IMG/VR virus record: IMGVR_UViG_3300003691_000026
Span: 1-39,034 of that record
Length of the DNA stretch: 39,034 bases
DNA from: a virus
Reading direction: 5' to 3' (one strand)
Part shown: piece after piece, positions 3,306-30,640 of the stretch
Numbering within the stretch: the stretch's first letter is position 1
Layout of the letters: each line of letters begins with the position of its first letter
Program-made: the position numbers and the translations under genes
Notes under the pieces: generated by a model
The model's database searches: none
What the model saw: the letters and a program-made list of their open reading frames with translations, nothing else
Told to the model about the DNA's origin: nothing

Positions 3306-4865
3306 TCATTTGTTATATTCCCATACACTATTTCCACAATCATAAATTCGGTAATACCCAATAGCATGAATTGCATCAATTGTGGAATCATAGTTGTCAA
3401 CATCTTTAATTTTATGTCGCATAAATGATGCGCGATGAGTTAGTGATTTAAAATCAGAGGTATACCATGCACACGGTGGGGATAGCTTTTTAAATTTAAA
3501 TCCTAAATGTTTATACACATCACCGTAGCTCCATCGACTATTTGCATATGACACAACTTGTTCTGGACTATATTCTCTAATAAATGTTTTAAACAGTTTA
3601 GATGCAATACCGACAACACTTGTGAATTGTTTAACACAAAAACGATTTAATTCATATCCACCATTTTTTAACTTAACATAACCACCCTTATTAAATGTCA
3701 TAACTGCCACTAATATGTTGTCATTAAATGCACCATATCGTATACTTGACTTGTCTGAACCCTGTAGATGATGTTTGTTTAAAAAAATATTAGATTCACG
3801 TGCTGATATTTTTGATATTTTAGTTTTTCTAGCATATAATCTATTTGCATTACAATTCAATATCGCACTAACTCTAGATTCAACTATATCACGCTGATTA
3901 ATCCATTCATTATCAAATATTGTATATATTTTTATACCACGCGATGTTCCAAACTTTTGCTTGTTTAATAGATGGTTCTTTTCATGATATAATTCTGAAT
4001 GCCAATATATTCCACAATATTCAAACCCTATATTTAATTCAGGCAAAAAACAATCAATTTCTTTACCTGCTAATATGTTTCTATCATTTTTTATTATTTT
4101 TCCATCATATATACTTTTAACATATTCTATAAAACCCGTTTCACCTAAACTCACAAATGATGGTGGGTAACACGTTGGGCATATTTCTTTACCACCATTC
4201 TTACTATTTCTAAAAACTTGTCGCGTTCTCTGGAACGTAGTATCACATTCACCACATTCTAACTCATAATAGTAGTAATCATGTGATTTTATGATTAAAT
4301 TATCTGATTTACATTTATCCAGTATAATTGCATGATATTTGTTTCTTTTTTCTTTTGCGTTATTATTTAAAGTGTTTCTTGACTTTTCTGCATGTGCATC
4401 ACTTATAGGTTTACCCATCAACGGACTAACCCAACCATTATCTACTTTAGTCTGTATGGTGTTATTTCTTTTTTTAATAGCATCATCATTAAAATAATCA
4501 TGACCGACTAACTTTTCTGATATTTTGCGCTTAGTATCATTTGAATGAGTTTTTCCAGTATTCCAATGCACTAATGTACCATCACGATACTTCTCTTTCA
4601 TTATATGTGACTGTTTCTCTTTTTGTTCAATAGATTGCGGTTGTCCTTTATTCCACGCTGTATATGATTTGTTTCGTTTTGATTTTTCTACAGATGCTGA
4701 TTTTTTTTTTGAAACCTCTTCACACACCAAGTTAGGGGAATCATATACTTTATTATATTCTTCCATGGTCATACTATGTTTATTTTTTAAATGGGATGCA
4801 GTGACTTGCTTATAGTGTGAGCCACACACATGACAAATCACATAATCTTTATTCAATTTACTCAT
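3306..4865 (-). CDS. free-standing homing endonuclease, EDxHD/Vsr-like, with zinc fingers and NUMOD3-like repeats
   Basis: 519 aa from the ATG at 4865; a longer frame would need a TTG in the loop of the sheath terminator and is unlikely. Order: a Ros/MucR-like finger (Cys11, Cys14, His25, His30); three NUMOD3-like DNA-binding repeats around AWNKG 69, HWNTG 99 and PLMGK 148; a four-Cys ribbon (204, 207, 229, 232); and the nuclease core with EIDCFLPE (269-276) and FEYCGIYWHSE (281-291). It ends in a domain (LYARKTKI to YRIYDCGN) shared with the 558-aa endonuclease in this window. Such enzymes cut a target in rival genomes and spread by recombination. It lies between sheath and tube genes, both intact, so it is not intron-borne. 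No late promoter or clear Shine-Dalgarno precedes it. Confidence 0.8.
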   Translation of the reverse strand: MSKLNKDYVICHVCGSHYKQVTASHLKNKHSMTMEEYNKVYDSPNLVCEEVSKKKSASVEKSKRNKSYTAWNKGQPQSIEQKEKQSHIMKEKYRDGTLVHWNTGKTHSNDTKRKISEKLVGHDYFNDDAIKKRNNTIQTKVDNGWVSPLMGKPISDAHAEKSRNTLNNNAKEKRNKYHAIILDKCKSDNLIIKSHDYYYYELECGECDTTFQRTRQVFRNSKNGGKEICPTCYPPSFVSLGETGFIEYVKSIYDGKIIKNDRNILAGKEIDCFLPELNIGFEYCGIYWHSELYHEKNHLLNKQKFGTSRGIKIYTIFDNEWINQRDIVESRVSAILNCNANRLYARKTKISKISARESNIFLNKHHLQGSDKSSIRYGAFNDNILVAVMTFNKGGYVKLKNGGYELNRFCVKQFTSVVGIASKLFKTFIREYSPEQVVSYANSRWSYGDVYKHLGFKFKKLSPPCAWYTSDFKSLTHRASFMRHKIKDVDNYDSTIDAIHAIGYYRIYDCGNSVWEYNK

Positions 4866-4884
4866 ATCGTCTATTTTAACATAC

Positions 4885-4911
4885 AAAAAAAGGAGCGTCA
4901 AGCTCCTTTTT
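4885..4911 (-). terminator. intrinsic terminator after the tail sheath
   Basis: 10-bp perfect stem (4887-4896 with 4902-4911), 5-base loop, and a T run on the minus strand from the A tract at 4885-4891. It starts 24 bases after the sheath stop and separates sheath transcription from the endonuclease. Confidence 0.85.
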
Positions 4912-17710: not shown

Positions 17711-20632
17711 TTATAATAATTGCTTTATAACTCTAGGGTCTAGTGATTGTACTATTTGAATATCTGAAACCACAATATTTGGTTGGATTATTTCATCTTC
17801 TTTAGCAAATACTTGGTATAAATCACCAAATACATGGTTGTCCGATACAGGTACAAGGACTACAGAATCCAAGTGGGCTGCAAGTCTCGCATGTATAAAC
17901 GCGGATAATTCTGTGAAATAAAACGTTTCACCAAATTCCCAAGAATTTATATCAAAGAATTCATTAACTAAATCTACAATATTTGATTTAACTTGATTGT
18001 CGGTTAGTGAATTATTTTCAGAACGAATTATTTTAATTGTTGCTCGTAATTCACTGCTCGCTTTTTTGCCTATAATTATTTTGATTTTACCCGAATGTAA
18101 TATTACAGTATCTGATATCATCTTGTTATCTAATAAGTAGCCAAAATCCGAACGTAAGTTAAATGGTGTTGGTGATGTTGGTTCTTCTACTATTCTATCA
18201 TTTAACCATAATTTTAAATTAGTGTAATACCCACGTGTAATTAAATATCCATCAATGATATTAGTTGCAGATGGGTCAATTAAGTTAAAACGTGGTGTGC
18301 GGTGTTGCCATAAGAAATTCATATCGGTTCTCCCTACTTCACGCTTATATAAACCTGCCCCTGAAATTTGATCCGCTTCCCATGCTTCCACAACTAATTC
18401 TGTTTCTGGTACGTATACCCATGGTGAATCTAAGTCATCACGATTGAAGTATACAAAATCATCTGTACCTACTAAATCAGATAATGAAACATTGTCTGGA
18501 ATACCATCACTGTTTTCATCATCTGGAATAATGTAAATGTCTGAAATACTATCTAGTCCCTTATCAACACCTTCTGTTATTGTGACTTGACCTAAAACAT
18601 CGAAAAAGTAATTCTGACTTAATGAACTGTTCTGTCTTGCAAATCCTATTTGTTTTGGCTGTGTGTTAGCCGCCAATACAACTAATGTATCTAAATTTGT
18701 ATTTAATGTATCATCAGTTATTACACTATCACCGTCGTTAGTTACATAGAATTTAGTTTCACCACTGTGAAATACTAATCTATTTGACGCATAACGAATC
18801 ACCCAACTATCATCAGTCTTAGCTTCAATTGAAATCCAGTAGCTCGTAGGTTCACTATTATGTGATATCCATGTGTCACTATTTACAACGTATTCTAAGT
18901 ATACGGTCTTTGGTGTGTTATATATTGCATACAGTAAAATTTGTTCTAAATTCAATATTTCTGTTGGGTTAAATGTTGTTCTTATTTCTGCAACAGGAAC
19001 ACCACTCAATAAAAACTGTGTAAAAAATACTGGCGTTTCAAGTAATTGTTGTATATGTGAGTTAATTAATGTTGTAATTAATGGTACGTTTGCACCACCA
19101 TCTTTGTTAGGCAACACATCAGAATCAACATTATCTGATATGATGTCACTATTGTAATATATTACCCCATCATCGCCAAATATCTTAACATTATCATAAT
19201 GTTCTCTAGGGTCAAACAATTGACCAATGTATTTAGAGTCACCTGCGAATGTCCTATTTACTGCACGTAATTTAAGTATTGAGTTATCTTGTAGCATGAA
19301 TTCATTATAGTCACGCCCATTTACCATTCTATCTTGTGTATAGTATACAGATGGCGCAATGCGTTTAATGCGTTCAATACCTTCTGTCTCTGCGGCATTT
19401 TGTATTGGATCCAGTAATGAAAATGTAAACGATAAATTTTGTTCAATATTTAAATTATCTCTGTATTGGAATGCTGAGTTAATATTTTGTATTGTGTTCG
19501 TTGGTATCGTTATATCTGAATTTGCGGATGTTCTATACCATATATCAAAACGACCCGATGGAATTGCTGCGAATTTACCATCACCAAAAATTATACGTAT
19601 TTGGTCGTCATTCAATGTTTCTATTTCATATTTATTTCGGTTTGGATTTGTATTGAATACTACATTCTGTGCACTTGCAACATCAACTCTTTCCCATTCA
19701 CCCATTCTCATGTCGGATAAGAAATCATCTTCCACAGTTAAAATTTCATCAGTATCTGGGTTTACATTGTTTAACCATATATCTGTTTCATTAATATTAT
19801 CAATATTGATTTCATGTGTTTGATTTGGCGTTACTCCATCAAAATCCGTAACAACTTTTTTTATTTCACCCTGTTTGGTAAAGATGAAAAATCCAGTATT
19901 GGATGATGAATCTCCAAGACCATCATTTAAATATAGAATTGAAAAATTAAGATCTTTTTCTGGTCGTCTTTCGATTGGTCCAAATTCATTCAATTCACTA
20001 CTAACCAATTCCATTGGATATTGTAAACCTGTCACGTTCACATTATATGGCATAACATTATTTACCAATGGTGAATTTTTAAATGAATATGATTCAAATA
20101 ATACATCCTGCACCTGAACTCGGTCAGATGGTAATACTGAACCAAATTCTTGCTCAAATACTCGATTGATTACTAATATGAACTGTTCTTTCCAGTTACT
20201 ATTGTTTCTATCATTCCAGAGAATGTTTTTATTTGCTAAATCATTACCACGTGAATCAATCACACGTTCAGTTGTAGAGATTGTAGTTAATTTAACAATA
20301 CCTCTAGATGCAATATTTCTATTTGCATTATATGATAATAGTTTAGCTAATCGTAGTACAGATTCTTTACGTTCTGCTGTTGATATGAAGTTCTCATGCG
20401 CATTTAAATCTAAACGATATGCGGTTATTTCACCTAAATACGCGAATAATTCTAATAATGCAACTAGTTCGGAACTCTCAATGAAGTCATTGAAATCTTC
20501 GGGGAAATATATTTTCAAATAATCTAACATAGACTGCTTGATGGTCACAAAGTCCCATGCGGTGAAGTTTATCTGTTGGAACGCTTCATATGCACGTTCC
20601 CAATTTTCTGCTCTGTTAATTAATCTAGACAT
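17711..20632 (-). CDS. 6: baseplate wedge protein, T4 gp6-like
   Basis: 973 aa, longer than T4 gp6 (660). gp6 forms the inner ring of the baseplate wedges and drives the change in diameter at contraction; it is related to the gpJ family of P2. The N-terminal signature covers residues 12-100: RAYEAFQQINFTAWDF, FPEDFNDFIESSELVALLEL, LNAHENFISTAERKESVLRL and AKLLSYNANRNIASRG. The central DRMVNGRDYNEF is the conserved gpJ/gp6 stretch. The C-terminus has family-like SELRATIKIIRSENNSLTDN followed by FFDINSWEFGETFYFTEL. The ATG lies within the last codons of the upstream endonuclease (13-base overlap) and lacks a clear ribosome site, suggesting that insertion of the endonucleases displaced the original leader. 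Confidence 0.92.
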   Translation of the reverse strand: MSRLINRAENWERAYEAFQQINFTAWDFVTIKQSMLDYLKIYFPEDFNDFIESSELVALLELFAYLGEITAYRLDLNAHENFISTAERKESVLRLAKLLSYNANRNIASRGIVKLTTISTTERVIDSRGNDLANKNILWNDRNNSNWKEQFILVINRVFEQEFGSVLPSDRVQVQDVLFESYSFKNSPLVNNVMPYNVNVTGLQYPMELVSSELNEFGPIERRPEKDLNFSILYLNDGLGDSSSNTGFFIFTKQGEIKKVVTDFDGVTPNQTHEINIDNINETDIWLNNVNPDTDEILTVEDDFLSDMRMGEWERVDVASAQNVVFNTNPNRNKYEIETLNDDQIRIIFGDGKFAAIPSGRFDIWYRTSANSDITIPTNTIQNINSAFQYRDNLNIEQNLSFTFSLLDPIQNAAETEGIERIKRIAPSVYYTQDRMVNGRDYNEFMLQDNSILKLRAVNRTFAGDSKYIGQLFDPREHYDNVKIFGDDGVIYYNSDIISDNVDSDVLPNKDGGANVPLITTLINSHIQQLLETPVFFTQFLLSGVPVAEIRTTFNPTEILNLEQILLYAIYNTPKTVYLEYVVNSDTWISHNSEPTSYWISIEAKTDDSWVIRYASNRLVFHSGETKFYVTNDGDSVITDDTLNTNLDTLVVLAANTQPKQIGFARQNSSLSQNYFFDVLGQVTITEGVDKGLDSISDIYIIPDDENSDGIPDNVSLSDLVGTDDFVYFNRDDLDSPWVYVPETELVVEAWEADQISGAGLYKREVGRTDMNFLWQHRTPRFNLIDPSATNIIDGYLITRGYYTNLKLWLNDRIVEEPTSPTPFNLRSDFGYLLDNKMISDTVILHSGKIKIIIGKKASSELRATIKIIRSENNSLTDNQVKSNIVDLVNEFFDINSWEFGETFYFTELSAFIHARLAAHLDSVVLVPVSDNHVFGDLYQVFAKEDEIIQPNIVVSDIQIVQSLDPRVIKQLL

Positions 20633-22296
20633 AATTTATATTTTATTTTACCACAATCATATATTCTATTTATGCCATTGTCAATAGTATTTTTTTCTTC
20701 TGTTTTCATACTATCATATTTAGCTAGTTTATTTTTTAACTGTTTATGTCTCAGATTGAATTTATGAACCCGTTTATCATTAAATACATAGTAATAATCA
20801 TAAGGTACGTCATGTACTTTTTTGAAATTATTATTTATATATAGTTGCCCAGTTGATATTCTATTATCTGCATATGTTATAATATACTTAAAATCATAAT
20901 TTCTTTCTATAAATTTAATTATTTTACCCATAATTCCAACTATCCGTATATTAGTCGCAAAGCGTACTAAATTTAGTCCTGTCTTAGATTGTTTTTTAAA
21001 TATACATACCCCAACTAATTTAGTATTATGATAAACTCCAATTTTGATTTTCCCAGAACCATATCCCTGTATGTGGTGCATATTTAAAAAATCTCTTGCT
21101 TCTTGTAGATTACATAACTTAACATCAGTCTTGCGTCCGTATATTGATGGAGTTTTTGATACTAGATTAATTATAAATTTTTCTATTATATTTCTATTAT
21201 GCTTCCATTCATCTTCAAATATTGTAATTAATCGTATACCTTTCTCTTTGCATTGTATATATTTATTATAATGATAATCTTTATCCTTATATACACTGGA
21301 ATGCCAATATATCCCACAATACTCTATCGCTAACTTTAATTCTGGAATATAAAAATCTAATTCAAGTGGTTTAATCTGCTTACGGTCATTTTGACATATG
21401 TGATAGTCGCAATTGTCTATTAATAATTTATAAATTTCCGTTTCTGCGTATGAACTACCGTTATGTAGTGTTATAGGTATGTTGAATTCTTCTAATCTTC
21501 GTTTTATAATCTTATAATCCACACACAATAATTCCGATAAATGTGATAATGGTATGTCATTCGTCACATGACTATCATATAACCATTTTTTATTATTTAG
21601 TTTTTCGTAGTTACTGTCACTTATGTGCATTTGTTCGAAATGTGCTCTGCCGTAACGCTCAATACTGGTATTTATACTCTGTTGTTTAAACTTATTGCAC
21701 TGTAGTGCATGCTTAAACCCGTATTTAGCTTCCATCGTATCTTGCCGTTGATTGACAATTTCATGAGTTTCTTCTTCTGTGTGGTTAGATATAGATTGTT
21801 TAAACTTAGAAACCAGTTTTTCATCATGCATAGCATGTGATACCCCATAACGTTCATTCATTGTATTATTTTTTTTATTATTTATTTTTTTGTCCTGTAA
21901 TGCATGTGCTACACCATATCGTTCAATCATGGTTTTTCTGATATTACCCATACGTTTTTTTGATTTATATGCGCATGATTTTGAACAATACTGGTTATAT
22001 ACTTTTAATGGTTTATTGAAAGATGTATCTTCATCACATGCACCACATTTTGGGATTTCGGATGTATTGTTCTTGATAGCATGTAATTTTTCTATGAATG
22101 AATGTTTACGTTCTTCGTCAATAAATGCAGTAGCGTGGTTAATTTCACACAATAGCTTGGGATGCTTTTTAAACATTTTACATGCATTTGCATTAATTTG
22201 ACCATTCTCTTTAATAAAATTAAATCCAATCAGCTTATTCTTTATTGTGTTTATTAGTAATTCTCCTATAAGATTCGAATTTGTCAAATAATTCAT
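20620..22296 (-). CDS. free-standing homing endonuclease, EDxHD/Vsr-like, with RYG-type repeats
   Basis: 558 aa from the first ATG; an extended frame would need a TTG at 22308. A four-Cys zinc site (84, 87, 104, 108) is followed by four repeats of ERYGVxHAxQ type (about 125-220), common in phage homing enzymes. The nuclease core has LELDFYIPE (311-319) and IEYCGIYWHSS (324-334), then RLITIFEDEWKHNR. The C-terminal domain (SIYGRKTDVKL to NRIYDCGKIKY) matches the end of the endonuclease at 3306-4865. Family-like sequence begins by about residue 18, inside the 62-base overlap with the upstream HNH gene; a TAGGAG at 22264-22269 lies in this overlap, but no ATG follows it. The 3' end overlaps the gp6 start. 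Confidence 0.78.
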   Translation of the reverse strand: MNYLTNSNLIGELLINTIKNKLIGFNFIKENGQINANACKMFKKHPKLLCEINHATAFIDEERKHSFIEKLHAIKNNTSEIPKCGACDEDTSFNKPLKVYNQYCSKSCAYKSKKRMGNIRKTMIERYGVAHALQDKKINNKKNNTMNERYGVSHAMHDEKLVSKFKQSISNHTEEETHEIVNQRQDTMEAKYGFKHALQCNKFKQQSINTSIERYGRAHFEQMHISDSNYEKLNNKKWLYDSHVTNDIPLSHLSELLCVDYKIIKRRLEEFNIPITLHNGSSYAETEIYKLLIDNCDYHICQNDRKQIKPLELDFYIPELKLAIEYCGIYWHSSVYKDKDYHYNKYIQCKEKGIRLITIFEDEWKHNRNIIEKFIINLVSKTPSIYGRKTDVKLCNLQEARDFLNMHHIQGYGSGKIKIGVYHNTKLVGVCIFKKQSKTGLNLVRFATNIRIVGIMGKIIKFIERNYDFKYIITYADNRISTGQLYINNNFKKVHDVPYDYYYVFNDKRVHKFNLRHKQLKNKLAKYDSMKTEEKNTIDNGINRIYDCGKIKYKLCLD

Positions 22297-23437
22297 AATA
22301 CCATGCAATTAGAATATCGCCACATTCACCGTTAATTATATCACTACCGAAGTCAGGATTACCATATATCGGACTAAATGCTATTTTAAATATACATTGA
22401 TAATGTTCTGGCTCCATTTTATCCATTAAATGTGAAAGACTTGACAACCTATTGTCAATTTTTTTTCTATGTATACATGTTCCGTCATTTTTTAACCATT
22501 TCGCCATATATTGCTTACTTACTCCGAACCATTTGGCAAACTCAACATGAGATATATTAAACTCCTTATGCATATTTAAATATGTTATAGTATTATCATC
22601 GATGCCATGATTATTTTTAATGATATCAAATTTGTTTGTCCATTTTATTACTGCTATCCTTGTCACATTGTACATTTCACCAATATCAGTATATGAATTT
22701 TCATTTAGGAGTTCTTGGAGTTCTTGTTTTGATGGTCGTTGCCTATTTTTCATTGTATACTTTCCATTAATATATAGATTATGTTTATCTACATACTTAC
22801 TAATATATGAGTTTGTAACACCATATTTAGCCGCGATATTACCATATGTTAATCCCAATTCTAAAAAATTAAGTATATCATTTTTGTACAATTTCGTTAC
22901 GTGTTTGTGTACTGCATTATAATACCAGCGTATTTTATATTTTCGCACTAAGTTATATATCGTTTTATACGGTATGGCGTATTTATTAGATATGTCTATA
23001 TATTTCATAGTTTTTATGTCATGATATATTGCTTTTTTAGTTGGGATATTGTTATAATATGAAGAATTATGTTTGCATTTATGTGAACAATATTGCTTTT
23101 GGGCGTTTTGTAGTGTTAATCCACAAGTTTTACAGAATACTGGAGAATAACATAATTTCGGCATATTTGTTGGTATTTCAGAAAAATATTGACACCCATC
23201 ATTAATCCATGTATGTAACTTGATATGTTCTTTTTGTGACATAAGTAACAAGTTTGACATTCTATTATTTAAACGATTACCATCTAAATGGTGTACTATT
23301 TCACCATCAGTTAAGTTGCGTTTAATGTTAACTATCATAAAATATCTATGCTCACTTATCCACCCATCATCTTGAGAGTATTTAAACTCTGGACGATAAA
23401 TTTTTCTATACCCTTCAACTATTTTAATATTTTCCAT
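22235..23437 (-). CDS. HNH homing endonuclease
   Basis: 400 aa. An HNH_3-type nuclease lies at 28-75: SEHRYFM (His30), then EIVHHLDGNRLNNRMSNL with His49-His50, Asp52, Asn54 and Asn62, and HIKLH ending at 75. A four-Cys zinc site follows near 102-122 (CKTCGLTLQNAQKQYCSHKC). The rest has several short helix-turn-helix-like segments, such as YGNIAAKYGVTNSYISKYV and HVEFAKWFGVSKQYMAKWL, which probably read the DNA target. It stands 37 bases after gp25 and overlaps the next endonuclease by 62 bases, forming a tandem insertion between gp25 and gp6. Confidence 0.82.
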   Translation of the reverse strand: MENIKIVEGYRKIYRPEFKYSQDDGWISEHRYFMIVNIKRNLTDGEIVHHLDGNRLNNRMSNLLLMSQKEHIKLHTWINDGCQYFSEIPTNMPKLCYSPVFCKTCGLTLQNAQKQYCSHKCKHNSSYYNNIPTKKAIYHDIKTMKYIDISNKYAIPYKTIYNLVRKYKIRWYYNAVHKHVTKLYKNDILNFLELGLTYGNIAAKYGVTNSYISKYVDKHNLYINGKYTMKNRQRPSKQELQELLNENSYTDIGEMYNVTRIAVIKWTNKFDIIKNNHGIDDNTITYLNMHKEFNISHVEFAKWFGVSKQYMAKWLKNDGTCIHRKKIDNRLSSLSHLMDKMEPEHYQCIFKIAFSPIYGNPDFGSDIINGECGDILIAWYYELFDKFESYRRITNKHNKE

Positions 23438-24187: not shown

Positions 24188-26685
24188 TATATTCCACCTC
24201 CAAGGTCTGTCACATACCCTTCAAGTGTCATGGCAGAATCAGCTAACGCAATTAAATCTGAGCTATCTAATCCACCACTGACAATATTAGATAATATTGT
24301 ATTATTTGAATCAACATGTGATGCAAGTTCACTCATCATAGATATTACACTAGGCAATCCCTCACCGGTTACTGTACTATTATATGTATTCAGTGCATTA
24401 ATAGCATCACCTATATTGATATTGTAGTTAGCGTAAAGAACATCACTGTCTGTCCCTGTTGGGTTTGTAAAATTGATACTAAGTAAATTAATGTTTTCTA
24501 CCGCATTTGTAAATTGACTTAATACATTATCGATTTGACCCTGTATTCCACCGACCTGTGTTAATGCACTATCAAAACTATTTTTAAGTTTACTTACTTC
24601 ACCCTTTAGACCATTAACCCAACCCATTATGTTGTCCTTAGTCCAACCACCTAAATCTACATTTAATTCAAACAGTGAATCAGGCAACAATTCTAGACCT
24701 TCTATTGTAAGTATATTGGTTAAGTCGAAACATAGATTCGGTAAATTTAAAGTTGGTAATTCTATCGCAGGTAGCTCAAGTGAAAAACTTATAGGCAATG
24801 CACCAAGCCATGGTGGTAGTGGTACTTCAAGAAATTCAAGTGTTAACATTTTCGTTAGAGACGCATTTATACTATTCACATGTTCATGGAAAAGCTGCAT
24901 ATGATTGTTCCAATCTTCTTCCATATCTTCCATGAACTCATTCATATCATTGACGGTTCTTTCAACGCCATCTGGAAGTTTAAATGTAACATCTAAATCT
25001 CCTTCATGTTCCTCTAAACCATCATTGGTTAGTTTTACTGTGACTCCGGGAAATTCAAAACATCCCGGAGGGTCATTTTTTGCCTTTTCAACAGATACCT
25101 CAGTACTCGCGGTCTGTGCGATTTGATTCTGTGCTGATGCAGTTACATTGTTATTACTGACTGAATCTATATTTGTTGCAACAGTGAACATAGAATTTTC
25201 GCCATCCCCCGATAAAGTAACTGACTCTTTAACTGATTCTATAGCAACATTTTCACCTTTCGATTTAATATTAACATCCATTTGAGCCGCCAAGTCCATT
25301 TTTCCACGGAATGAGAATATTTCTGTATTATTAATTGCTCGGTGTTTAGCTGAATGACCCGCGAACTGTGATATATTTGCAGTAGCGTTTATAAGTAAGC
25401 TACCATTAATTGACGTGCTTAAATCTCCCTTATTAACTATAGTATTCAAATCTCCTTCAACCTGTAATGAATATACTCCACCCACTGATGTACACATGTC
25501 ACGACCAACCTCGAAAAATGTATCTTCAACTGAAAGTGTGCGTAGCGATTTTTCAGTCATGACGTGTATATCATTAACTGCATGCATTCTTATCTGTCCG
25601 TCTTCTGGTACAACATCAAGAGATTTTTGTCCTCTAGTATCGCCCGAATACATATGAATTCCCTTCTTGCCCTTAATTCTAACCGTTTCGTCCGACTCAA
25701 TGTTGATATCCTTTTTTGCATGAATTGATAATCTCCTATCTGCATATATGTCAATATTCCCTGACTTATCCATTTCAATGTATGATTTTCCCTCATATGT
25801 TGAAATGTATATTCGCTCATTCGTGTCATCCAAAATAATTTGATGACCTGCTGTTGTTTTAAACTGTATTCTTGAATTAAATGCTCGGTCATCCATCATC
25901 ATTGAATGAAACCCCGGTGACGACCATGAGTACACTCTTGAACTTTTGAATGCTCCAAGGTTTTTATGACCACTCCAATCATACCCATGCGCACCTAGAA
26001 TAGGTTTAACCCAATCATCTGATTCAGCTTCACTTATTTGTGGGTATTGGTTATCTAAATATGAACCTCGTGATGGGTTTGGAATCTCACCAATATCCTC
26101 ACGGACTCCGGTAATTTGATAATTAGCCGAACGAGTCTTCCATTCGGGAGTATCCTTTTTATCTTGGAATGCTTCGGTTGCATTAGAATATGCAGGTTCA
26201 ATTGGGTCTTTTGTAGAAGACAACGGACCATCAGGAAAACCACCTGACCAATCATATCTACCTGTTCCAATTGTATGTGTTTCTTGGTGTTCTGGAATAC
26301 ATCCTAACCATACACGACGACGAGGGTCATCATTAATACATGCGATTAATACATGTGCACCCTGTTCTGGGATTCCCCAAAATCCATAATGCACTGCACC
26401 AGTTGTTGATTCTTTACCTTTCTGATGTCCACGTGCGTATCCTGAGTTATTTACACTGCCACCAAATGGTGAACCATATAATGCCCACGGAAGATGGTGA
26501 ATTTTTTTAGGATTATCGTTGAATTCTGGACAAAATACCATCAAACGACCACTTTCGAGTGGGTCATCCGCATTCACTACCAATCCTATACTGATGTTTG
26601 TAGTTAAATGTGTTATATCATCACGTGTTCCGTCAGATGAATTGACGTTCATGAATTCTTCTAATTGTTGTTCTGTTATTCTCAT
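24187..26685 (-). CDS. 5: baseplate hub/central spike, T4 gp5-like (VgrG-type, no lysozyme domain seen)
   Basis: 832 aa. An N-terminal OB-fold region (about 30-130: IGLVVNADDPLESGRLMVF, then GFWGIPEQGAHVLIACINDD) is followed by a gp5/VgrG trimeric beta-helix with short regular repeats from about 275 (FKTTAGHQIILDDTNERIYI, then SGNIDIYADRRLSIHAKKDI) to about 500. The spike punctures the outer membrane. T4 gp5 has a lysozyme domain between these parts; here that span (130-265) holds linker-like sequence without a recognisable T4-lysozyme Glu/Asp/Thr catalytic pattern. About 270 extra residues follow the helix, with helical segments and a hydrophobic beta stretch near 615-665. Start and stop both overlap their neighbours by TAATG. 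Confidence 0.85.
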   Translation of the reverse strand: MRITEQQLEEFMNVNSSDGTRDDITHLTTNISIGLVVNADDPLESGRLMVFCPEFNDNPKKIHHLPWALYGSPFGGSVNNSGYARGHQKGKESTTGAVHYGFWGIPEQGAHVLIACINDDPRRRVWLGCIPEHQETHTIGTGRYDWSGGFPDGPLSSTKDPIEPAYSNATEAFQDKKDTPEWKTRSANYQITGVREDIGEIPNPSRGSYLDNQYPQISEAESDDWVKPILGAHGYDWSGHKNLGAFKSSRVYSWSSPGFHSMMMDDRAFNSRIQFKTTAGHQIILDDTNERIYISTYEGKSYIEMDKSGNIDIYADRRLSIHAKKDINIESDETVRIKGKKGIHMYSGDTRGQKSLDVVPEDGQIRMHAVNDIHVMTEKSLRTLSVEDTFFEVGRDMCTSVGGVYSLQVEGDLNTIVNKGDLSTSINGSLLINATANISQFAGHSAKHRAINNTEIFSFRGKMDLAAQMDVNIKSKGENVAIESVKESVTLSGDGENSMFTVATNIDSVSNNNVTASAQNQIAQTASTEVSVEKAKNDPPGCFEFPGVTVKLTNDGLEEHEGDLDVTFKLPDGVERTVNDMNEFMEDMEEDWNNHMQLFHEHVNSINASLTKMLTLEFLEVPLPPWLGALPISFSLELPAIELPTLNLPNLCFDLTNILTIEGLELLPDSLFELNVDLGGWTKDNIMGWVNGLKGEVSKLKNSFDSALTQVGGIQGQIDNVLSQFTNAVENINLLSINFTNPTGTDSDVLYANYNINIGDAINALNTYNSTVTGEGLPSVISMMSELASHVDSNNTILSNIVSGGLDSSDLIALADSAMTLEGYVTDLGGGI

Positions 26686-29327
26686 TATGTGCTGTTCTTA
26701 TTATATACGTTTAGTATTCCATCATTTGCTAGTGTTTTTGTTGCATCTGATTTAGTTATTAATTTATTTTCTTCATGTATTTGACCAATTTGTTTGTTAC
26801 CTTCTTTACCATTTTGAACTAATTCATCCATCTTAGCACTCAATACAGTCAATGCTTGTGCTAATTCTAGTCTACCTGCGGCTGCTATTTCATTCTCTTT
26901 TAATCTTTTTTCTATGTTTGCAGGACTTTTTACAATCCATGCTTCCATTTCAGCAACACTATTATCATTAAAACTAAATGGGTCTATTCTTGGTTTCTGT
27001 AATCGATGTTTTTCTTCGGCAGACATTTCAGTTGCACTACTAAACCATGAGGTCATCATATCTAACCCTTTTTGATGAACAGGTGATAGTAGTGGAGCTT
27101 CCATTATTTTAGCAGCAGTTTCTCCTATTGTCTTACCTGCAAGTTCAAATATTCCACCTTTCATTGACTCTCGTAATGCATCACCAAATGCTTGGACAGT
27201 TTTACCTGAATCTGCTTCAAATGCGGCTAAAAATGCTTGACTGTATGCAGGGGCTAGTGCAAGAACTGCTCCTATTCCAACCATATTTCTACCCATGCCA
27301 ACTCCACGTTTTAGTGGTTTGTCGTTTTTATCAAGTTTCCCCTTTTCCCCTTTTCCACTCATAAGTGCTCCACTCATTTTAACAGCAGCCGCTCCACCCA
27401 AAACTTCTGGCAAGATAGATGCAAATGCTCCACCTATCATTATTAAGCCTTTACCAACTGGAGACTTAGCAAAACCTTTCCAATAATTATTTATTTCTGC
27501 TAAAACTTTTGTTAACTTACCTGTCTCGGTTAATGATTTTTCAACAAGCATATTAGCTTGTTTCGAAAATAACCCAGTTGCCCCTGAACGCTCAGAAGCC
27601 ACTAAGTCTACATCTCGTTGACCTGCAACACCTGCATTGCTAGATAGTATTTCTAAACGGGTTTCACCTGCAATATTTCCAGTTCTTTGAAATTCTTGGA
27701 ATTTTTTCTCTAATCGTATTTGTTGTTGCTTAATTAATGATTCTGCTTGAGTACGTTCATCTTTACCTAATGATGCAGGACTTGCCGTAAACCTCTTAAT
27801 CAGATTTGCCTGTTTATCATCGAAACCTAGATCACCTGCCAAGCGACCCGCAAAACTTGCTTGCACTCGTCTATCTACAGCTTTACCTTGTTGCTGTTTT
27901 GCTAATTCTTTATAGAATGCAACAAATCCGTCAGCAGTTATATTTGTTTTCTCCTTTAAATTGACGAATGATTCGGCAAGTGTGGTTATGTTATCTTTAC
28001 CTTTGTTCACTGCTAAGAAATAACTCTTAAATGATTTATCCTTTGATAGTGATCTAAATGCTTGTTGCATTTCTTCGAAATTCTCATTACCCATTTTCCC
28101 TGTACTCTGTAGTACATTCATATATGAGGTCATACCTTTTATAGATGGTTTAACACCTAAATCCATAAAGAGTTTAAATCCTTCTCCCATAAATTTAGTA
28201 TTTTCTACACCAACTAATGTAAATCGTTCTCTAATCTGAGTTTCTAATGCTCTAAATGTATCAGAACCTGCAACACTCATTGCATCAGCACTACCCATCA
28301 GCAATCTTAATTCTTGACGCATTTCTTTTATACTGTTTACAAATTCTGTCTGTGATTGACCACTTGTCACTGAATCAATGGCTAAATCAAACATATCCGC
28401 ATCACGGAAACCTTCTTTTACAACTGCAAACAATGAATTGGTTTGGTCTTTAATACCAAATAATATACCTGCAACCACAGCAGCTTGCAATCTTGGACCT
28501 AAACTATCTAATGCTTTGTTTAGTTTCACCATGCTATCATTCAAGTCTCTATCTATTGATTTTTTTATTTTTAATATACTTTCAGATAATTCTCCACCAC
28601 TGCTATTAATGATGCCACTAACTTTGTCCAGATTCATTTTTTCAATTAGTTCGTCAGTTAAATTTACATCACCACCTTTCTTCATCATTACGCGGAAATC
28701 TTTCAAATCTGAACCTGCATCATTAAATACATCAGCTAAATTTAGTCCTTGGTCTTGTAAATCTTCTAGTATAGTTGTAAATCTTTTATTTTCATCGGCA
28801 CTGAGGTGCATAGATTCGGTCATCTTACTGACAATACTTGATAATTCTACAAATTTATCTCGGACTTTATCACCTGCTTGAATAACACCAAGATTATCAA
28901 GGTTGTCTCCATTTAATGCATCCTTGATGAACTTATGTATACCATTTCTGAATTTATTAGAGCTATAATTTATGCTATCAGTTAATGAGTTAACACTTTT
29001 TTCAACTTTAGTGCTGAATTTGGTCATATTCATTGATGATGCTATTGAACTTCCTGCTCTTTTTAATATGTTGGAAAAACCCTGCCCAACATCATCGGCT
29101 ATATCATCGATACCATCTTTTAAACGTTTCCTTGCATTATCCGCAGCTTTTGCTAAGTCATCCATACTTTTAGATGCTTGTTTAGTATCAACAGTCCCAT
29201 CAGTTTTATTAGATGTGTACTTTCCTTCACGATTTTGACCCACAGAAGATGCCATGGAGTTATTCATTTTGTCCATAACTCTATTTAATTTAGATAAGGT
29301 GCTAAGTAGTTCGTTTTCCAGTGCCAT
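26685..29327 (-). CDS. tape-measure-like tail protein
   Basis: 880 aa, first gene of the hub operon. Mostly predicted helix with heptad-like sequence in the first 300 residues (ELLSTLSKLNRVMDKMNNSM, then AADNARKRLKDGIDDIADD). Hydrophobic glycine/alanine-rich stretches follow near 630-655 (KGLIMIGGAFASILPEVLGG) and 685-705 (GIGAVLALAPAYSQAFLAAF), typical of tape measure proteins that later insert in the host membrane. T4 uses gp29 (590 aa) as ruler and hub part. Length is set by the tail, so 880 aa would imply a longer tail than T4's. The assignment rests on composition and position, not on a family motif. Confidence 0.65.
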   Translation of the reverse strand: MALENELLSTLSKLNRVMDKMNNSMASSVGQNREGKYTSNKTDGTVDTKQASKSMDDLAKAADNARKRLKDGIDDIADDVGQGFSNILKRAGSSIASSMNMTKFSTKVEKSVNSLTDSINYSSNKFRNGIHKFIKDALNGDNLDNLGVIQAGDKVRDKFVELSSIVSKMTESMHLSADENKRFTTILEDLQDQGLNLADVFNDAGSDLKDFRVMMKKGGDVNLTDELIEKMNLDKVSGIINSSGGELSESILKIKKSIDRDLNDSMVKLNKALDSLGPRLQAAVVAGILFGIKDQTNSLFAVVKEGFRDADMFDLAIDSVTSGQSQTEFVNSIKEMRQELRLLMGSADAMSVAGSDTFRALETQIRERFTLVGVENTKFMGEGFKLFMDLGVKPSIKGMTSYMNVLQSTGKMGNENFEEMQQAFRSLSKDKSFKSYFLAVNKGKDNITTLAESFVNLKEKTNITADGFVAFYKELAKQQQGKAVDRRVQASFAGRLAGDLGFDDKQANLIKRFTASPASLGKDERTQAESLIKQQQIRLEKKFQEFQRTGNIAGETRLEILSSNAGVAGQRDVDLVASERSGATGLFSKQANMLVEKSLTETGKLTKVLAEINNYWKGFAKSPVGKGLIMIGGAFASILPEVLGGAAAVKMSGALMSGKGEKGKLDKNDKPLKRGVGMGRNMVGIGAVLALAPAYSQAFLAAFEADSGKTVQAFGDALRESMKGGIFELAGKTIGETAAKIMEAPLLSPVHQKGLDMMTSWFSSATEMSAEEKHRLQKPRIDPFSFNDNSVAEMEAWIVKSPANIEKRLKENEIAAAGRLELAQALTVLSAKMDELVQNGKEGNKQIGQIHEENKLITKSDATKTLANDGILNVYNKNST

Positions 29328-29447: not shown

Positions 29448-30446
29448 GTGGCAAAAAACAAAAAGAAGAAAAAAAATAAAGTACAACCACATACACATAG
29501 TGGCAAGTATGTTGAGTATGATGAACAAGATGACATTAAAGATTTACTAGATGAAGAACCAACAGTTGTAATCATAAAAGAAAATCCACTATTGCGCAAG
29601 ATTCAACTTCCGGGGCAAATGTTTAGGTTGCCGTCACGTGGTATATTTTATAAAGATGGGGAATTAGATAAAAAAATTATTGATGGTGAAGTTGAAGTAT
29701 TTCCAATGAAGACAATTGACGAGATTACATTAAAAACTACTGATATGATATTTCAAGGTACTGCAATTACTCGTGTGTTCGAACGCTGTATACCAGATAT
29801 CAAAAAACCATTGAAGTTATTATCTGAAGATGTTGATTATTTGATTGGTTGCTTAAGACAGGTTTCATATGGTAATGCTCTGCCTATTAAAGCAAATTGT
29901 GAGCAAAAGTCATGTGAAAAACATCCTGTGCGAGAGTATACAATTCCCTTGAATCAAATTCTTATATCCAATACCACAGAGTTAGATGATAAAAATATAG
30001 AAAAGGATTATACGTATGTTCTTCATAATGAAGCACTTAATACTACACAGGATATCCAATTCAAGCCTATTTTATTCGAACAGTTAGTTAAAATGTATCA
30101 ATTCAGGGCTGAACAAGATATGTCATTTCAAGAAATTGAAAACGATGATGATGTTGATGATGCTTTAGAAAAAGCACTAAGTGATTTTGTTACAATGACA
30201 ATTTCTAGTCTAGTCGAATCTGTTGATGGTATTACGGATAGAGACCAGATATTTGAATGGTGTGCAAAATTGCCAATTAAATTTAAAGATGAATTAGCTG
30301 AAAAAGTTGAAGGACAAACGGATTGGGGGACCAAATTCGAATATACCGTTGAATGTTTTGACTGCCAATCACCAATTGATTTAACCGCATCACTTAATCC
30401 TGTTGGTTTTTTTACTCTACCCTCAAGTCCAACAAAGAGCACCTAG
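29448..30446 (+). CDS. 26: baseplate hub assembly protein, T4 gp26-like
   Basis: 332 aa from a GTG behind AGGAG. After a lysine-rich start and an acidic linker, the T4_baseplate family core appears at about 48-150: KIQLPGQMFRLPSRGIFYKD, then EVEVFPMKTIDEITLKTTDM and DVDYLIGCLRQVSYGNALPI. A Cys pattern (CEQKSC near 147 and ECFDCQSP near 303) suggests a zinc-binding segment joined by a beta region, as in gp26-type proteins. The family helps assemble the hub. T4 gp26 is 208 aa, so this is long. The frame ends shortly after a seven-T run in phase for -1 slippage; the fused form would be 397 aa (see 30413-30640). Confidence 0.82.
   Translation: MAKNKKKKKNKVQPHTHSGKYVEYDEQDDIKDLLDEEPTVVIIKENPLLRKIQLPGQMFRLPSRGIFYKDGELDKKIIDGEVEVFPMKTIDEITLKTTDMIFQGTAITRVFERCIPDIKKPLKLLSEDVDYLIGCLRQVSYGNALPIKANCEQKSCEKHPVREYTIPLNQILISNTTELDDKNIEKDYTYVLHNEALNTTQDIQFKPILFEQLVKMYQFRAEQDMSFQEIENDDDVDDALEKALSDFVTMTISSLVESVDGITDRDQIFEWCAKLPIKFKDELAEKVEGQTDWGTKFEYTVECFDCQSPIDLTASLNPVGFFTLPSSPTKST
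30407..30413 (+). promoter_or_regulatory. probable -1 ribosomal frameshift site (T TTT TTT)
   Basis: Seven T's placed as T-TTT-TTT in the phase of the gp26-like frame, the X-XXY-YYZ pattern. The -1 frame is blocked by a TAA at 30395-30397 just upstream and is open for 75 codons downstream. After a 7-base spacer, CCTCAA (30421-30426) can pair with TTGAGG (30464-30469), enclosing GCAC/GTGC; a 9-bp hairpin (30470-30478/30482-30490) abuts it. Confidence 0.68.
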
Positions 30447-30640
30447 TTAAAGTAAGTGCGGAGTTGAGGAATCAAATTCAAAATTTGATTGATGAAGTTA
30501 TACAATTAACATATTTTATGCGTGGTGCAATTGGCTACGATAAAATGATGGATATGACTTACGGAGAACGTTCTCGTGTCGCTAAATTTATCGATGCAAG
30601 ATTAGAAAGTGAAGGTAAAAAAACAAACCCAGTGTATTAA
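30413..30640 (+). CDS. -1 frame extension of the gp26-like protein (75 aa, no start codon of its own)
   Basis: Reads from the slippery site to a TAA at 30638-30640. It has protein-like sequence: a helix (LVKVSAELRNQIQNLIDEVI), then FMRGAIGYDKMMDMTYGERS and RVAKFIDARLES. This helical pattern with a Tyr-x-x-x-Met-x-x-Met-x-x-x-Glu-Arg core recalls short C-terminal segments or partners of gp26/gp51-type hub assembly proteins in T4-like phages, though I cannot name a family. No ATG occurs in the first 35 codons and none has a ribosome site, so frameshifting is the simplest way to make it. A one-base sequencing error in the T run would instead fuse the two frames permanently. The RuvC-like gene starts 2 bases later. 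Confidence 0.7.
   Translation, partial: YSTLKSNKEHLVKVSAELRNQIQNLIDEVIQLTYFMRGAIGYDKMMDMTYGERSRVAKFIDARLESEGKKTNPVY

Follow-up and report, generated by a model that had tools for sequence, protein, structure and literature searches.

A gp26-type gene in a 39 kb virus fragment from IMG/VR (the window, 39,034 nucleotides) carries a run of seven T's shortly before its stop codon, at which the ribosome very probably slips into the −1 frame, giving a minor longer protein. Judged by comparison with relatives, the programmed −1 frameshift proposed in the first-pass annotation is real, being very well supported by the slip site and its codon phase, by a stimulatory stem and by purifying selection on the −1 reading. 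Its use is of the known lambda gpG/gpGT type and not a new one. The features concerned are the following.

29448..30446, + strand: zero-frame product of 332 amino acids, gp26-type, short form, TAC-N candidate (PF12322, phrog_150, AlphaFold2).
30407..30413, + strand: slippery heptamer T_TTT_TTT in the phase of the zero frame (GGT TTT TTT A), with the same phase in related loci.
30414..30470, + strand: stem-loop with outer helix CCTCAA / TTGAGG, from 7 nt after the run (folding against recodings, relatives).
30413..30640, + strand: −1 frame extension, 75 amino acids and stop; a helical domain at the C terminus of the long form, which is a TAC-NC candidate with a gp51-like C domain (tblastn, dN/dS, AlphaFold2).
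26685..29327, − strand: divergent neighbour of 880 amino acids, a tape measure candidate judged solely by where it lies.

The zero-frame gene starts with GTG at 29448, with AGGAG eight bases upstream. Around the T run it reads CCT GTT GGT TTT TTT ACT; 10 sense codons follow and TAG (30444-30446) ends the gene. Upstream, TAA at 30395-30397 shuts the −1 frame, which from 30413 stays open up to TAA at 30638-30640, corresponding to 75 residues. Coordinates and frames were thus re-read and found correct as first annotated, both for the heptamer in the zero frame, 10 codons before the stop, and for the −1 frame, closed just upstream of the run and open for 75 codons beyond it. The first part of the gene (29448-29580) encodes an N-terminal extension of ∼43 residues with a lysine-rich start, which has no counterpart in the relatives that were aligned and was modelled at low confidence.

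The zero-frame protein matched PF12322 (T4_baseplate) in Pfam with E 7e-7 (29.6 bits; curated cut-off 24.5) and the baseplate hub family phrog_150 in PHROGs with E 4e-7. For its AlphaFold2 model (pLDDT 84.6), the top viral structure matches in BFVD include T4-like baseplate hub assembly proteins (E 2.6e-18); fold comparison with PDB gave no match. PF12322 is also matched by T4 gp26 and gp51 each. In addition, phrog_634 ('baseplate hub assembly catalyst', gp51) matched both residues 147-246 of gp51 (E 1.2e-23) and the cyanophage −1 peptide (E 1.7e-26), and with an HMM of cyanophage −1 peptides (C domain), gp51 was the only significant T4 ORF (E 6.5e-5). The link of the window's own 75 amino acids to the C-terminal domain of gp51 runs via intermediate relatives, with no direct PHROG match. 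When a hub alignment of 10 sequences was compared by hhalign with T4 gp26 or gp51 singly, the result was weak, and the link was obtained by the Pfam/PHROG route. Judged from these matches, T4 gp26 and gp51 are paralogues of the window protein, gp51 having in frame the domain that cyanophages carry as the −1 peptide and, probably, that of the window's extension. As gp51 carries the C domain in frame and gene 26, the end of which reads ...FFELL, lacks the slip site, T4 appears to encode the short (26) and long (51) forms as two paralogous genes.

Based on the link to the gp26/gp51 family and on its gpG/gpGT-like anatomy, the window gene is a candidate tail assembly chaperone. Chaperones are expected to be absent from virions, and some records (CBB) name this protein structural, which counts against such a role. 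That a real frameshift adds an optional extension to a structural hub protein instead of a chaperone is unlikely. This reading draws on the baseplate hub annotation and on a T4 literature that was long uncertain whether gp26 belongs to the hub (PMC3004832). Against it, Table 2 of the same review gives gp26 and gp51 as hub assembly chaperones, with gp51 absent from the particle. Two papers citing Vladimirov et al. 2022 (Virology 566:9) describe short and long T4-like tail assembly chaperones, with poly-T −1 signals in some; one of them, PRFect (PMC10885494), cites that work for T4-like phages with a short chaperone gene and a longer, fused one. Because the gp26-type 'hub' family is the gp26/gp51 chaperone family and these papers describe short and long chaperone forms in T4-like phages, the frameshift would be a classic gpG/gpGT use, and the first-pass suggestion of a new use in a gp26-type hub protein is not supported.

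The extension alone was used as a tblastn query. It matched Xanthomonas phage XacN1 (46.5%, E 6e-13), RAS14/CM1 from Stenotrophomonas and the Agrobacterium phage Atu_ph07; in every case the match sits in −1 register behind the hub gene. Past the zero-frame stop, dN/dS over 57 disjoint pairs of relatives was 0.094 for the −1 reading and exceeded 1 for either of the other frames, which refutes an indel artefact and shows a functional peptide. By this sequence measure the extension is a functional peptide under purifying selection, in line with the earlier impression that the 75 residues look like real protein. Residue conservation starts exactly at the slip site. The extension was modelled as helical (AlphaFold2, pLDDT 86.7); comparison of the C domain model with PDB gave low-Z helical matches only (best Z 4.8) and linked it to no solved chaperone structure, and direct searches of Pfam and PHROGs with the 75 amino acids gave nothing significant.

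Two separate genes, with translation of the downstream domain starting independently (through re-initiation or internal initiation), would be a very unlikely arrangement. In several relatives an ATG occurs among codons 1-12 of the extension, and small separate ORFs are annotated at this place in databases. In the window, however, the in-frame starts (TTG at codons 18 and 25; ATG at 36, 45, 46 and 48) are all inside the conserved domain and none is before it; that the −1 frame has no usable start of its own was noted at first pass. Moreover, an ATG is missing from codons 1-25 in 62 of 214 loci, and separate genes leave unexplained both the conservation from the slip site onward and the retention of the heptamer itself.

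Relatives were collected by three scans of IMG/VR with alignment-derived patterns, yielding 240 loci, 205 of which were distinct with a readable 3′ end. Scans using single proteins had found few or no relatives. Loci were picked via the hub protein and not via the heptamer. When gp26 homologues were compared in this way, the overlapping frame proved to be kept, and T_TTT_TTY was present in the same codon phase, 1-23 codons ahead of the stop, in 199 of the 205 distinct related metagenomic loci. In nearly all of these 199, the −1 extension is 62-81 codons long; from base composition, an opening of at least 62 codons has a mean probability of ∼0.01 per phage. Among isolates, T_TTT_TTT or T_TTT_TTC was found in phase in XacN1, RAS14, CM1, Atu_ph07, Phosso, SCTP-2, MIJ3, GAP32, RaK2 and PBECO4. 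The in-phase heptamer also occurs in Munch, CBB, BF, Kaldavass, PA5oct, XbC2, XaC1 and Hallingskeid, in a Vibrio jumbo phage and in cyanophages S-SM2 and P-RSM6. T4 was the sole exception among the isolate relatives for which the junction was read.

Codon choice at the junction was examined in 73 representatives (<60% identity), which were drawn from slip-bearing loci and are still related to one another. The codon ahead of Phe-Phe is NNT in 73/73, over ten amino acids, compared with ∼55% expected from the genes' own codon use; other Phe-Phe pairs of the same genes have the slippery form in 2/29 cases. In the cyanophage-type loci (L113-L192, S-SM2 as L030 and P-RSM6 as L031), an SD-like GGAG, GAGG or AGGG lies at most 22 nt upstream of the slip site in 79/79, vs 8/141 of the others. 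This motif may be a dnaX-like stimulator or simply reflect conserved Glu-Gly codons.

The stem CCTCAA/TTGAGG, first noticed 7 bases past the run, is present in the window with a minimum free energy of −16.9 kcal/mol (z −3.3 against dinucleotide shuffles). Compared with 400 synonymous recodings, which preserve the −1 peptide and its own codon use, z was −4.35 and 0/400 were as stable. For the T7-type group of 13, the mean stem z against recodings was −2.8; control regions upstream and further downstream of the stem were flat. The outer helix, as CCCTCAA/TTGAGG(G), was found again in most T7-type relatives. In XacN1 (CCATCAA/TTGATGG) as well as L035 and L054 (CCTCC/GGAGG), both strands of the helix are altered; these changes were judged by eye, since the 3′ arm moves out of register by one base from one sequence to another.

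Slippage during transcription of the T run, resulting in mixed mRNAs read by ribosomes without a shift, is slightly less probable again than separate genes. It would suit the seven T's of the window and eleven other loci and the 8 or 9 T's of two more. The run is only six T's in 206/220 loci, however, which is short for polymerase slippage, and neither the strict codon phase nor a stem under selection at ribosome-type spacing fits this explanation. Finally, a homopolymer run within a metagenomic contig might bring to mind a gene that is in truth single-frame and was broken by a sequencing indel, or one that has decayed. This is refuted by ∼200 distinct loci, and by complete genomes of isolates, in which the frame breaks at the identical codon.

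Six of the 205 loci lack the −1 heptamer (L059, L106, L107, L108, L109 and L112). In four distant relatives, L106, L107, L108 and L112, the zero frame reads TTT TTT TGG and a homologous C domain lies in the +1 frame; these domains matched the −1 domains of their sister group with E 2e-12 to 6e-6 (Z set to 1000). For L109/L110, which reads GAG TTT TTT CGC, the C domain appears to lie in +1. In L059/L060, which reads CTT TTT TAA, the C domain is still in −1, a layout that suggests a P-site slip at the stop codon. An out-of-frame junction is thus kept even without the −1 heptamer, the C domain of these loci being in +1 or −1. There is about an even chance that the family switched frameshift direction at one Phe-Phe junction, being mostly −1, +1 in L106, L107, L108 and L112 (possibly L109/L110) and none in T4, which has two genes instead. 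If true, the set of −1, +1 and none would form a natural series for recoding evolution.

The 880-amino-acid neighbour has two hydrophobic segments; no family match was found in Pfam or PHROGs and no relative in the phage collection. In XacN1, the gene adjoining the hub gene is another than in the window, which counts against the tape measure assignment, and in cyanophages a protein of 766-836 amino acids directly follows the chaperone-type gene. Elsewhere in the window, ORFs 3306-4901, 20620-22308 and 22235-23437, lying among tail genes, have the look of homing-type endonucleases when their translations are read by eye.

Taken as a whole, it is highly probable that a chaperone gene is read with a stem-aided −1 slip into short and long forms; the anatomy of the sequence, its conservation, the selection on the −1 frame, the stem and the homology are shown by the data, and actual slippage, product ratio and chaperone role are what we infer. 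In this explanation, the gene would serve a T4-related phage with a contractile tail as the source of its tail assembly chaperone. At 30444 most ribosomes would halt, producing the short form. A minority would be delayed by the stem-loop 7 nt downstream and slip −1 on U_UUU_UUU, where two Phe-tRNAs would pair anew after the shift; the 75-residue helical domain would then be appended to give the long form. By analogy to lambda gpG/gpGT, many short and few long copies may coat the tape measure protein, with the added domain bringing in tail tube subunits.

The loci show that T4-related phages, comprising jumbo phages, cyanophages and the lineage of the window, broadly keep a frameshift arrangement for which T4 uses two genes. 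A 2016 review describes G-T type frameshifting as conserved in long-tailed phages 'except T4' (PMC5009743), and no earlier report of a gp26 frameshift in jumbo phages was found in the literature searched. Those annotated records that were examined either leave the two pieces unjoined or lack the second; a usable annotation rule is to fuse the gp26 gene to the small ORF past T_TTT_TTY.

Compared with known systems, the window gene resembles lambda gpG/gpGT in that a −1 slip late in the gene, close to where the short form stops, would add a C-terminal domain, one gene giving two products. Unlike lambda, it combines U_UUU_UUU with a stem in a gene of the T4 gp26 type, and it is divergent from its large neighbour instead of upstream of it. 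With T4 gp26/gp51 it shares the family of the zero-frame protein (PF12322, phrog_150), and gp51 holds the C domain that relatives carry in the −1 frame; unlike in the window, the short and long forms of T4 are in two genes and the end of gene 26 has no slip site. The chaperone of Pakpunavirus/Vandenendeviridae, like the window gene, has a poly-T −1 signal (GTTTTT) where the short gene ends; this signal is shared by a whole family, in a lineage different from that of the window (PMC12846349).
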